Source: Anaerolineae bacterium (GTDB lineage Bacteria; Chloroflexota; Anaerolineae; Anaerolineales; Anaerolineaceae). Taken from it: a DNA stretch of 64,000 nt. The notes under the pieces are model-generated. The model saw nothing but the letters and a program-made list of their open reading frames with translations, did not search any database and was not told the origin of the DNA. The stretch lies in NCBI GenBank assembly GCA_013314735.1, contig JABUFD010000003.1:496001-560000 (forward strand). Reading direction: 5' to 3'. A program made the position numbers and the translations under genes. Positions 60,721 to 64,000 of this stretch are shown piece by piece. Positions within the stretch are counted from its first letter, which is position 1; every line of letters starts with the position of its first letter.

Positions 60721-60841
60721 AATTGCCGGGGAAGGGTTCCGGCACGGGAAACCATTGAAGGAAAGTCTTACTACACAAAGATTAACTTAACAGATAAGCT
60801 TACTGGTTCGAGTAGGGCTATGTAATTTTTCTCATTGATAC

Positions 60842-60847
60842 TATAAT
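60842..60847 (+). promoter_or_regulatory. Candidate -10 box (TATAAT) of the druA-nurA-herA operon
   Basis: TATAAT lies 27 bases before the ATG at 60875; no good -35 box is visible at 17 bases. AAGG precedes the start codon, so translation uses a normal leader. Confidence 0.4.
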
Positions 60848-60874
60848 CCATAAGTAGAAGGGATTAAGGTATCA

Positions 60875-62065
60875 ATGCTGGTTGAGAAAGAACAGATCGA
60901 GTTAACAATTCCTGTTGATGATAAAAGTCAAATTCGGCAGTATGTCCTACAACACTTAATAGATTTAGGCTTCTCTTGGGATGAGGCTGGGAACTTATCT
61001 TTGGAATCAGATTCTAAGGATTTGATTAAAACTGTCCATCAACCTTCGCGTGAGGAGGAGTTGATTAAGAGACGTTCATTTATCGAACGAGTAGCGCCAA
61101 AGTATGCTTCTTTCTTTGCAAACGGCAAGGATATTAATCCACAAAAAATCACACCTTATGTCGTAGAGGTAAGCACTAACCAACATAATGAAATTTTCAG
61201 CTTTGCTCGATTAATTTGGTCTTTACCTTTTTCGGCAGGCTTTGGTAGAAGAATTCGCTATCTTATTTTTGATAAGTATAACAATAAGCTGATTGGTTTA
61301 CTAGGTCTTCAATCACCGCCTCTTGATTTCGCTGTTCGTGATAATCTGTTTAATTATCCAGATGGCATGAAAACATATTATGTTAATCAAACTATGGATA
61401 TTCAAACATTAGGTGCAATACCTCCATATAACTTTTTACTAGGAGGAAAACTTGTAGCAATGTTAGCTGGTTCTGATGAAATTCGAAAATCATATCAGAA
61501 CAAGTACAATTCAAGAATTACTGAAATGGAAAAAAGATACATACCCAATCATATTGTTGCATTAACCACAACCAGTGCATATGGAAGAAGCAGTATATAC
61601 AATAGATTAAAATATAATGAACATTTGATAGCAAAATCGTTAGGCTTTACAGAGGGGTATGGAAGTTTTCACCTTATGCATTTGTATCCATTATTTAAAG
61701 CGATACTAGAAGCTAACGGAGTTTCCACTTCCGGTGGATATGGTACGGGGCCGCGAATAAAATGGCAAACAATGGAAAGAGCACTTGCATATCTCAATTT
61801 GCCTAGAAAATTTCTAAAGCATGGCATTCAACGTGAGGCATTCATATTTCCATTGTGTAAAAATATTTATGATTATATGAGTGGCATCGCTGAAGAGCCT
61901 GAATATAACAATTTTTCATTTGAAGAACTAGCTTCATTCTGGAAAAAGAGATGGTTATTGCCAAGATCGACTAGAGAGTTGAAATGGAAATCTTGGGACA
62001 AAGATGAACTATTAAAATCTATGATGATTTGGAAAGTCAATGGTGAGATAAAATTTTATGGCTGA
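60875..62065 (+). CDS. DUF4338 protein, Druantia DruA-like
   Basis: 396 residues. The core (about 100-335) carries the DUF4338 signatures LIGLLGLQSPPLDFAVRDN, TYYVNQTMDIQTLGAIPPYN, LLGGKLVAMLAGSDEIRKSY, IVALTTTSAYGRSSIYNRLKY, SLGFTEGYGSFHLMHLYP and GYGTGPRIKWQTMERALAYLNLP. DruA of Druantia type I anti-phage systems has this domain; its biochemical role is unknown. Here it leads an AT-rich operon: its end overlaps the NurA gene by eight bases. The usual Druantia partner DruE is not seen in the window. Confidence 0.85.
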   Translation: MLVEKEQIELTIPVDDKSQIRQYVLQHLIDLGFSWDEAGNLSLESDSKDLIKTVHQPSREEELIKRRSFIERVAPKYASFFANGKDINPQKITPYVVEVSTNQHNEIFSFARLIWSLPFSAGFGRRIRYLIFDKYNNKLIGLLGLQSPPLDFAVRDNLFNYPDGMKTYYVNQTMDIQTLGAIPPYNFLLGGKLVAMLAGSDEIRKSYQNKYNSRITEMEKRYIPNHIVALTTTSAYGRSSIYNRLKYNEHLIAKSLGFTEGYGSFHLMHLYPLFKAILEANGVSTSGGYGTGPRIKWQTMERALAYLNLPRKFLKHGIQREAFIFPLCKNIYDYMSGIAEEPEYNNFSFEELASFWKKRWLLPRSTRELKWKSWDKDELLKSMMIWKVNGEIKFYG

Positions 62066-63197
62066 TATACCTCGCCCTTTCGGGGAATTACCTATGTCCC
62101 TCGTTGAAAAACTACTCGATCAAACAGAGCAAGTGGGAGAAAAACTTGTTTCTGAATTTGTAAATATCAAAGAAAGAAAACAGGATTGGAGAAATCAATT
62201 ACAGGAAAATCGGCTAATTAAAAGAGAGTCAGATCTTCCATTTACCAACCCACCTACCACCTGCGGAATCGATGGAGCATACGCTGTTGAAAGATTGTTA
62301 GCCAGCGATTTGGTGGTAGCCGCAGCAGTTGGAGTTGAAGGAATAACTCCACCATCTGAACCCAGATTCTGGGAGGAACCTGATAACTCATCATATATTA
62401 CTGTTGAACCGCACGAAGCTGAAGTAGGTTCGATATTAAGAGGAATTGCAATTGGCATGGAATTGATACTTGCTATAAGAGCACCTCATAATGTCATTTT
62501 TATTGATGGTTCGTTGATTACGCCAATAATCCACCTCAACCAGGCAATCAATAAAGCAATTCAACATCCAGAGTTGGTAACAAGCCGTTCTTTTTTAAAG
62601 AAATTCCCAGATATCATCGAATCATATAAATTACTACTGACTAACGAGCGAACTGATAAATGTTGGGTAGGTATTGCAAAATACACAAGTAATACAGATA
62701 TTTCAACTACGCTGTCCTTGGGAACAACATTGGATGACAAGGCATTATTAAGCCTGCTGTTAGAACCCGGAGAGTATTCTCAACCTCGGAAAATAGCATC
62801 CGATGGTTCTTGGCATATTAATAATTCACAATTTAAAAATGATGTTAAAGTTTCAAAAAACATTAGGCTCATAGAGGAAAACATTTCGAGTATACACATC
62901 TTATACTACCGACCTTACGGATGGTTACCAGCAATACGCATTGAAAGCAATGCTTCAGTGGTAAGTAATAAAAACAGGTTATCACAGCTATTAATGGCGA
63001 TAAAACATCAATGCAGCACACCTTCGATTATGGAGCCATATCCATTATATATGGCTGATAGAATGGTCAAACACATTTCAGAAGCTATACCAACTTTTCG
63101 CCAAGTGTCAACTCAATCATTGGCTGAACAATATGATGGTGATTTAAATGATGTATTCATGGGGTTACATAGTTATAGAACTGAATCAGGAAGGTAA
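62058..63197 (+). CDS. NurA-domain nuclease
   Basis: 379 residues. The NurA fold shows GIDGAYAVERLLASDLVVAAAVGV (D72), ILAIRAPHNVIFIDGSLITPI (D150), ILYYRPYGWLPAIRIESN and PYPLYMADRMVKHISEAI, i.e. the catalytic Asp residues and the C-terminal conserved block. NurA is a 5'-3' exo/endonuclease that works in a complex with the hexameric motor HerA in DNA end resection. The gene overlaps druA-like by eight bases and is followed three bases later by a HerA-type gene, so a complex is expected. Confidence 0.82.
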   Translation: MADIPRPFGELPMSLVEKLLDQTEQVGEKLVSEFVNIKERKQDWRNQLQENRLIKRESDLPFTNPPTTCGIDGAYAVERLLASDLVVAAAVGVEGITPPSEPRFWEEPDNSSYITVEPHEAEVGSILRGIAIGMELILAIRAPHNVIFIDGSLITPIIHLNQAINKAIQHPELVTSRSFLKKFPDIIESYKLLLTNERTDKCWVGIAKYTSNTDISTTLSLGTTLDDKALLSLLLEPGEYSQPRKIASDGSWHINNSQFKNDVKVSKNIRLIEENISSIHILYYRPYGWLPAIRIESNASVVSNKNRLSQLLMAIKHQCSTPSIMEPYPLYMADRMVKHISEAIPTFRQVSTQSLAEQYDGDLNDVFMGLHSYRTESGR

Positions 63198-63200
63198 ATC

Positions 63201-64000
63201 ATGCAAGAAGAATTAACCCATTTACTAAATAATGCCGAGCAAATAAGTGTACTGGGATCTCCGTCATCTACATCAGAAATTGATCTGGACATTTTAGGCA
63301 ATGCCGTGGAAAAAAAACTGGTAGGTGAACTAGCTTTGTTTAACTTTATTCAGGGTGGTAAACGTCACTATGCTTTGGGCCAGATAACAGAGATTTTACT
63401 AAGAAATGTATGGCATGAAGACCCAACCATGAGAAGTTTAATTCGTCAAAAAGGTAGAATCGACGCTGTTAGTGAACGACAAGACACCCATCAAGGAAAA
63501 ATGACTATCAGTGCAGTATTTTCAGAGGAAAAAAACGGCGGAAATTACCAACCATCATTACTCGGTACTGTGCCTGCTACAGGCACTCCTATTTATTTAG
63601 CAAGTGACAATGTTCTAAGACAATTGCTAAAGAATTATCAACAAGAAATTTTTTACTTAGGCAAAGTATTTGGGTCACAGCCATTATTGCCATTGTGGTT
63701 TAAGCATTTTGACTCAGGCAAACAAGGGGCAGGAGAAGCTTATCACATAGGCATATTTGGTAAGACAGGCTCTGGTAAATCTGTCTTAGCGAAAATGATG
63801 TTACTCGCTTATGCAAAACATCCTGAAATGAACATAATAATTATTGATCCGCAAGGTGAGTTTGCTAAGAATGCAAATAATTCGGGCTATCCAAACAATA
63901 TGGGAGAAGTATTTAATAGAGAAATTTTATCTACTTTAAATCGGACAGTGCAAATATTTAATATTGATACTATCCAACTTGATCGATGGGAGCTTTTCGG
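63201..64000 (+). CDS. HerA-type DNA translocase ATPase (5' part, runs off right edge)
   Basis: 266 residues are visible from the ATG at 63201, preceded by GGAAGG. N-terminal part (about 10-170) fits the HAS-barrel of HerA (VEKKLVGELALFNFIQGGKRHYALGQITEILL). Walker A is GKTGSGKS (187-194) in YHIGIFGKTGSGKSVLAKMM and Walker B is MNIIIIDPQGEF. The remaining ATPase domain lies outside. HerA rings pump DNA and stimulate NurA. AT-rich like the two upstream genes, same operon. Confidence 0.85.
   Translation, partial: MQEELTHLLNNAEQISVLGSPSSTSEIDLDILGNAVEKKLVGELALFNFIQGGKRHYALGQITEILLRNVWHEDPTMRSLIRQKGRIDAVSERQDTHQGKMTISAVFSEEKNGGNYQPSLLGTVPATGTPIYLASDNVLRQLLKNYQQEIFYLGKVFGSQPLLPLWFKHFDSGKQGAGEAYHIGIFGKTGSGKSVLAKMMLLAYAKHPEMNIIIIDPQGEFAKNANNSGYPNNMGEVFNREILSTLNRTVQIFNIDTIQLDRWELF

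Follow-up and report, generated by a model that had tools for sequence, protein, structure and literature searches.

The 64,000-nucleotide stretch of an Anaerolineae genome analysed here (contig JABUFD010000003.1, positions 496,001 to 560,000; hereafter the window) ends in three adjoining genes that encode a DruA-like (DUF4338) protein, a NurA-like nuclease and a HerA-like ATPase, to which we refer as the triad. An earlier account drawn from the letters of the window (the sequence-only reading) had described them as a candidate new anti-phage system.

Layout of the triad and its AT-rich island

The open reading frame (ORF) positions place the three genes in immediate succession, with an overlap of 8 bases between druA and nurA and a gap of 3 bases between nurA and herA (Table 1), which confirms the tight coupling that had been claimed. 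The sequence-only reading had set the start of the feature at 60842; the first start codon of the druA ORF lies 33 bases downstream of this, at 60875. The window is located near the end of contig C6 of the host genome, and 4801 further bases to its right were examined. There, the complete herA encodes 593 residues and ends at the position equivalent to 64982 of the window.

The triad is part of a compact AT-rich island of about 5.5 kb in a GC-rich chromosome. The G + C content is 0.34–0.40 in intervals wholly inside the island versus 0.54–0.69 in intervals wholly to its left (from 50000 on), in line with the AT-rich trio and GC-rich left flank described by the sequence-only reading. At the right edge it remains at 0.33–0.38 until about 66400 equivalent and then rises to 0.71.

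Table 1 Positions of the triad genes and of their island within the window.
Feature	Position	Strand	Length and basis
druA-like gene	60875..62065	+	396 residues; ORF call, PF14236, PADLOC DruA, AlphaFold2 model
nurA-like nuclease gene	62058..63197	+	379 residues; ORF call, PF09376, model compared with solved NurA
herA-like ATPase gene, in-window part	63201..64000	+	open at window end; ORF call, DUF87
AT-rich island with triad, left part	60770..64000		G + C profile; edges approximate

Identity of the three proteins

Profile searches uphold the DUF4338, NurA and HerA identities proposed earlier. The DruA-like protein matches PF14236 (Pfam, E 5.1e-73) and the PADLOC DruA model (E 1.8e-97), and it is the single DruA match in a PF14236 search of the host genome. 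The HerA-like protein matches DUF87 with an E value of 8.2e-13 for its in-window part and 1.3e-16 for the whole protein. It contains the P-loop GKTGSGKS (residues 187–194, including K193), which is invariant in 15 aligned sequences except at position 191. In a sequence search of the PDB it matches TdpA (E 3.9e-8), and there are weak matches to known HerA systems in NCBIfam, PADLOC and the PDB.

The NurA-like protein matches PF09376 with an E value of 4.4e-6, covering profile positions 2–253 of 254. Its sequence found no relative among solved structures, with two chance-level matches only; its identity is, however, also supported by its predicted structure. The predicted model, with a predicted local distance difference test (pLDDT) score of 93, aligns with Sulfolobus NurA (2ygk; Z 22.6, root mean square deviation (rmsd) 3.7, 293 residues aligned), with the T. 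kodakarensis HerA–NurA complex (9x1m; Z 22.2) and with TdpB, the NurA-like subunit of TdpAB (Z 14.1). An alignment of 50 NurA sequences shows no variation at D72, E135 or D150, which are candidate counterparts of metal-binding acidic residues such as Asp49 of T. kodakarensis NurA. According to one report, T. kodakarensis HerA–NurA cuts both DNA strands, its cutting of double-stranded DNA needs ATP hydrolysis, and an antiviral use is discussed (PMC12977600). By family membership, the window HerA and NurA would be expected to form the same complex, with the same nuclease activity, as these characterised relatives. The host genome contains a second NurA on contig C9 (G000:C9:574217-575053), which fits the NurA profile better than that of the window; the profile search of the host genome listed this C9 protein and not the weaker window NurA.

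Recurrence of the triad across phyla

The sequence-only reading had called for recurrence in other genomes, and the triad does recur. The window NurA was found in 25 of 396 genomes of the class. Among 27 stretches fetched around class NurA matches, DruA, NurA and HerA stand side by side in 19; of the other eight, six are at contig ends (L041, L045, L055, L057, L058, L059) and two carry a short DruA that tblastn missed (L043, L050). The matches in these stretches are 28–67% identical. When the search was widened with a NurA alignment, 109 genome loci were confirmed; the 80 best of them, which exclude more distant NurAs, form together with one viral locus and the window a set of 82 NurA-gathered loci. 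DruA is present in 66 of the 82 and absent from 13, while three loci at contig ends were unscorable and are left out of the ratios. The class-genome and wider-scan counts overlap, as several class genomes are in both, and so are not independent.

Among the scored bacterial loci DruA is present in 61 of 63. One of the two without it is a Pyrinomonas locus (L091) whose NurA frame starts only at residue 41; the other (L133), a long-branch row with implausibly overlapping frames, is a doubtful locus. The gene order in the 65 triads other than that of the window is DruA-NurA-HerA in 60 and NurA-HerA-DruA in three, with DruA convergent in one and a DruA-NurA pair at a contig end in one. These 65 span 19 named phyla, with five unclassified and one viral. 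Chloroflexota (24) and Bacillota (8) are represented repeatedly, and Cyanobacteriota, Pseudomonadota and three archaeal phyla are among those with one triad each; several of the archaeal and short contigs belong to metagenome bins, where misbinning is possible.

The presence of DruA on the NurA tree requires five changes versus a mean of 12.2 after shuffling, with none of 500 shuffles as low. When the neighbouring genes of 81 loci were clustered, HerA appeared in 80, NurA in 79 and DruA in 63, whereas the next family was found in at most four. Across the 52 loci in which all three proteins are long enough (L133 left out), protein distances correlate at 0.68 for DruA-NurA, 0.49 for DruA-HerA and 0.85 for NurA-HerA, and none of 2000 permutations was as high, in a test that leaves shared ancestry in. 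The relations of the triad NurAs on the tree are unlike those of their hosts in the 19 phyla. Because of this wide recurrence the triad is more than chance, and the conclusion that the three genes are conserved as a coupled, horizontally spread module is well supported.

Additional large genes, different from host to host, are inserted in a few of the operons. These include a sacsin-like ATPase with NOV_C (L095 2769-5933), a pentapeptide-repeat protein (L102 5817-8114), a GmrSD-type protein (L109 1435-3201) and a gene whose start is similar to the L095 gene and which has a TmtA-type match (L099 6833-9964). Some triads have restriction or methylase genes of types I, II and III in their vicinity. 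When 94 flank or internal genes, hand-chosen from 165 listed, were searched, they matched 259 PADLOC families at E 1e-8; among 10 hand-picked neighbours, seven have matches to models of restriction, methylase or other defence functions and three have none. These counts, which have no matched control, are not taken to show enrichment in defence islands.

The predicted fold of DruA and its link to Mom

The AlphaFold2 model of the window DruA (pLDDT 90.5) consists of an N-terminal helical part followed by a GNAT-fold domain at about residues 89–348, and DruA is thus predicted to adopt a GNAT fold. Acetyltransferases are at the top of the Foldseek PDB list for this model. When 997 PDB chains were re-compared with DruA, phage Mu Mom (8bv8) came first in a tied list (Z 9.9, rmsd 3.5, 177 residues aligned). 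One report independently assigns DUF4338 to the GNAT domains (PMC10853773). A search of solved structures with the DruA sequence found no relative, and Mom is not among the 50 viral-library structures listed for the model. An alignment of 55 triad DruA sequences contains 33 invariant columns, many of them polar.

The link to Mom at the sequence level runs through a group of short DruAs. Two of these (L075 and L087, 88% identical to each other) are distant from the triad DruAs and occupy the slot before NurA, and that of L075 matches both PF14236 (E 4.8e-32) and the PHROG family "Mom-like DNA modification protein" (E 4.8e-5). In profile comparisons, the short DruA profile matches the Mom profile (probability 91.6, E 8.2e-7), and the triad DruA profile, which shares PF14236 with it, matches the short one (probability 81, E 1.2e-5); a control comparison of NurA with the Mom profile gave nothing. 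Mom Ser124, the residue mutated in the solved inactive form of Mom, aligns with S219, which is invariant in five short DruAs. No short DruA match was found in phage records or viral contigs. A Synechococcus phage protein (L164 2213-3334) that matches PF14236 (E 9.3e-9) is annotated in its record as "methylcarbamoylase mom".

One report describes Mom-family GNATs as modifying adenine and, in jumbo phages, as fused to nucleases, a restriction-like unit in the interpretation given there (PMC7824862). The DruA model also matches predicted proteins labelled Faunusvirus, Yasminevirus and Dasosvirus (E 1.8e-15 to 1e-8). These are giant viruses of protists, and DruA-like folds thus seem to reach giant viruses.

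DruA with other partners and on viral contigs

PF14236 was found in 28 of 199 class genomes, with one copy in each. Seventeen genomes are named in both the NurA and the DruA class searches, and in all 17 DruA adjoins a window-type NurA; therefore, 17 of the 28 class DruAs belong to the triad. Eight of the other 11 were examined (G047, G092 and G113 were left out). Three of the eight adjoin divergent NurA-HerA pairs. In one (L156; G088:C30, 17-7941), an operon of DruA, NurA (E 6.2e-12) and HerA (E 1.8e-21) continues into Mre11-like and Rad50-like genes, so that DruA is linked there to a complete set for end processing; in the next (L157), NurA (E 1.6e-12) and HerA (E 3.6e-14) stand beside DruA; and in the third (L158), NurA scores 19.0 bits, below the 21-bit cut-off, and HerA is seen by a triad-built profile only. 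At E 0.001 the triad NurA profile missed the NurAs of these loci, and the HerA profile reached their HerAs at no better than 1e-10 to 6e-10; the three NurA-HerA pairs are therefore far relatives. A short DruA (L161) adjoins two genes that have NurA- and HerA-like motifs by eye, for which Pfam gave no support. Two of the eight examined DruAs are short and stand in IS66 transposon contexts; of the remaining two, that of G159 lies at a contig end and that of G053 has no partner on its 3.2-kb contig. The IS66-type contexts (L160 2729-4069 and L163 1024-3641) contain TnpB_IS66 and DDE_Tnp_IS66, indicating that the GNAT-fold gene travels with the transposon.

In the Poribacteria loci (L071, L078) and in L136, the branch of DruA differs from that of NurA when the two trees are compared; the DruA tree left out L072, L097, L098, L134 and L141 and sequences shorter than 330 residues. 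By these trees and the short DruAs in the same slot, DruA has been exchanged within the operon yet kept. A Haloplanus plasmid (L169 2639-8708) carries a gene for a 705-residue DruA, two unnamed genes and then a gene annotated as the DNA translocase FtsK, a further case of DruA paired with a DNA pump.

We found 10 distinct viral contigs with DruA, of which six are without NurA-HerA, three carry the triad (L142, L146 and L152, the last with an N6-methylase-like gene following it) and one carries a Druantia operon. In this last (L151 7536-17115; IMGVR_UViG_2713896713_000001), the three genes next to DruA match those of a Nitrosococcus plasmid Druantia operon (E 1e-149, 1e-68 and 0). The lone-DruA contigs are L147, L148, L150, L153, L189 and L190; about 15 of the 22 kb of L147 were covered, and the other five are covered whole. 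The lone DruA of L147 shares 87% identity with the triad DruA from a Syntrophaceae locus, that of L148 is 79% identical to the triad DruA of L098 and that of L153 is 64% identical to that of L140, while the DruAs of L150, L189 and L190 are only 39–42% identical to triad DruAs. A D12 adenine methylase adjoins the L150 DruA, and a PAPS-reductase-type gene lies about 2 kb (L153) or about 5 kb (L147) away; such nearness to DNA methylase or PAPS-reductase genes is as expected for an antidote gene. In the related contigs L189 (9559-15711) and L190 (8489-14631), DruA faces a conserved set of three genes encoding 391, 378 and about 884 residues.

Other genes and features of the island

A fourth island gene, which encodes 339 residues at window-equivalent 65142–66161 (L002 8143-9162), matches no Pfam family and has two C-terminal stretches that are hydrophobic by eye. 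It was considered as a core component and rejected, because it is present in just one of 199 class genomes, that of the window itself; it may be an accessory or a membrane effector. In one Spirochaetes locus, a distant relative separates NurA from HerA (L123 1436-2521; phmmer E 6.2e-9). To the right of the fourth gene, opposite-strand genes in GC-rich sequence, starting with a PfkB-type kinase, continue to the contig end. No direct or inverted repeats of at least 9 bases were found between the two edge stretches compared. In an empty-site comparison, the right neighbour had no clear counterpart in one other genome of the same genus. An Rfam scan of the window returned no RNA family.

Comparison with known systems

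Druantia type I (DruA–E) begins with DruA, and the triad resembles that system in having DruA as the first operon gene together with a DNA-processing ATPase. Its partners, however, are NurA and HerA, with no DruB, DruC, DruD or DUF1998 helicase DruE in the island. Two plasmid Druantia-like operons that we identified contain DruA, hypothetical genes and a large DEAD/DEAH helicase. The type III Druantia literature concerns DruH-DruE (PMC13316683; PMC13192584).

In the fold of its NurA and the family of its HerA, the triad is akin to the HerA-NurA end-resection complex of Sulfolobus, Thermococcus and Deinococcus. The window pair differs from it in being coupled to DruA, patchy and horizontally spread, in a host that has a second NurA. 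In Sir2-HerA and DUF4297-HerA, as in the triad, a HerA motor is combined with an effector enzyme, but the triad has NurA for its nuclease and a DruA gene besides.

The closest characterised plan is that of the Tdp system, in which a HerA-like TdpA and a NurA-like TdpB reportedly work with TdpC, a DNA phosphorothioation enzyme. The likeness is in the HerA-like and NurA-like subunits and is one of kinship, not of identity with the Tdp system; in the triad the modifier slot holds the GNAT-fold DruA. There are no sulfur-transfer families among the Pfam matches listed for the four island proteins.

The sequence-only reading had known of no system that joins DUF4338 to NurA-HerA, and the papers listed by searches of the open-licence literature, in several cases the best-ranked ones of longer lists, likewise include no description of DruA with NurA-HerA, although subscription papers and most preprints fall outside that literature, so that absence from print is not established by this search. 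The literature searched also gave no account of DruA function. One report describes a system that has HerA/FtsK, GNAT and TGT together with BREX components, and none of the words DruA, DUF4338 and NurA appears in it (PMC12839542).

Proposed mechanism and alternatives

Our favoured reading, to which we would give an even chance, is that the triad constitutes a mobile, self-contained and restriction-like module, with DruA marking self DNA and HerA-NurA destroying unmarked DNA. HerA as a hexameric translocase and NurA as a nuclease dimer would work as a single machine, pumping double-stranded DNA and cutting its two strands. DruA would tag the DNA of its own cell, probably with an acyl group, and HerA-NurA would spare DNA that carries this mark and destroy unmarked incoming DNA. 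Phages that pick up the marking gene alone would show a lone druA. We infer, then, that DNA is the DruA substrate, that its marking gates the machine between self and non-self and that the module acts against phages. The sequence-only reading had allowed DruA to be either DNA-sensing or DNA-modifying; the evidence leans towards modifying, short of proof. Since Druantia genes are absent, the triad is recurrent and the profiles hold, the designation "candidate new anti-phage system" is a fair one, with the anti-phage effect itself inferred.

A number of observations weigh against this proposal. Only three of 14 scored archaeal loci have DruA and 11 of the 14 are without it, and a divergent NurA-HerA pair on a Rhizobium leguminosarum plasmid (L155 8007-11040) has no DruA in 17 kb; thus, NurA-HerA pairs can exist without DruA. 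Further, none of the Foldseek PDB matches of the DruA model reached E 0.001 or better, and Mom shares its first place with ordinary acetyltransferases, other GNATs being no more than one Z unit away. A direct comparison of the triad DruA with the Mom profile gave no match (probabilities 0.5 and 0.3). In an indirect alignment via the short DruAs, the position of Mom Ser124 corresponds to G191, which is invariant in the 55 triad DruAs. As the triad DruA does not have the Mom serine, its chemistry cannot be simply that of Mom: with its GNAT fold and the match of the short DruAs to Mom profiles it is a GNAT related to Mom, but it is not a Mom. In addition, some of the lone viral DruAs may be cargo rather than antidotes, and that of L148 starts at the contig edge, where its neighbourhood is cut.

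The best rival explanation, which we judge unlikely, is that DruA has a GNAT fold which has lost its catalysis or been re-purposed and serves as a sensor or targeting subunit, recognising either a phage protein or some feature of the incoming DNA and loading or switching on HerA-NurA without any marking. The glycine in place of the Mom serine would fit such a role, as would the swapping of DruA between distant branches within the operon, as is often seen for sensors, and its occurrence with other machines (Druantia and the gene annotated FtsK). DUF4338 is also described, in one report, as a GNAT domain among the variable N-terminal domains of DndF (PMC10853773). However, the many polar residues among the invariant columns suggest catalysis, and lone phage DruAs that are close to triad DruAs fit an antidote better than a phage sensor. 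An acyltransferase could also act on protein or transfer RNA, either its partners or a host target, making the module one of abortive infection or a toxin-antitoxin. The closest solved folds, in which numerous acetyltransferases of proteins and small molecules tie with Mom, would agree with this, but the constant pairing of DruA with DNA-processing enzymes and the lone phage copies near DNA-modification genes make it distinctly improbable.

The triad might also not be defence at all but a DNA repair or recombination module like archaeal HerA-NurA end resection, with DruA as an accessory. Archaeal members of the NurA tree, including one (L118) that adjoins Mre11- and Rad50-like genes, point in this direction, as does the operon of L156 with its own Mre11- and Rad50-like genes. 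Yet we hold a repair role to be improbable, given the patchy distribution among class genomes, a spread over 19 phyla that does not mirror host relationships, the AT-rich island in a GC-rich genome, the triads on three viral contigs and the better-matching NurA that the host has on C9. Plain or degraded Druantia can be given hardly any credence. The DruA family match and PADLOC label and the 35% identity of the window DruA to the plasmid Druantia-like DruAs speak for it, but the DruAs of Druantia operons (three from plasmids and that of viral L151) fall on their own branch of the DruA tree, and in 65 other loci the partner is NurA-HerA. The sequence-only reading had set the trio apart from Druantia, and no DruE or other Druantia gene occurs to the right of the window. 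With no DruE in the island and the sole DUF1998 match of the host genome on another contig (C9), plain Druantia was rejected.

Implications

The triad sets DruA beside just two partners, the biochemistry of which is understood from relatives, making the role of DruA testable in a three-gene system. More broadly, and more tentatively than the restriction-like reading of the triad itself, DruA could be a new DNA-marking acyltransferase in a widespread restriction-like immunity that phages counter with druA alone, by a logic that extends to Druantia. If DruA does mark DNA, its mark would be a new and widely occurring base modification, and HerA-NurA, which most work has treated as a pair of archaeal repair enzymes, would join the restriction machines. 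If it is a marking acyltransferase, the same logic would explain the role of DruA in Druantia.

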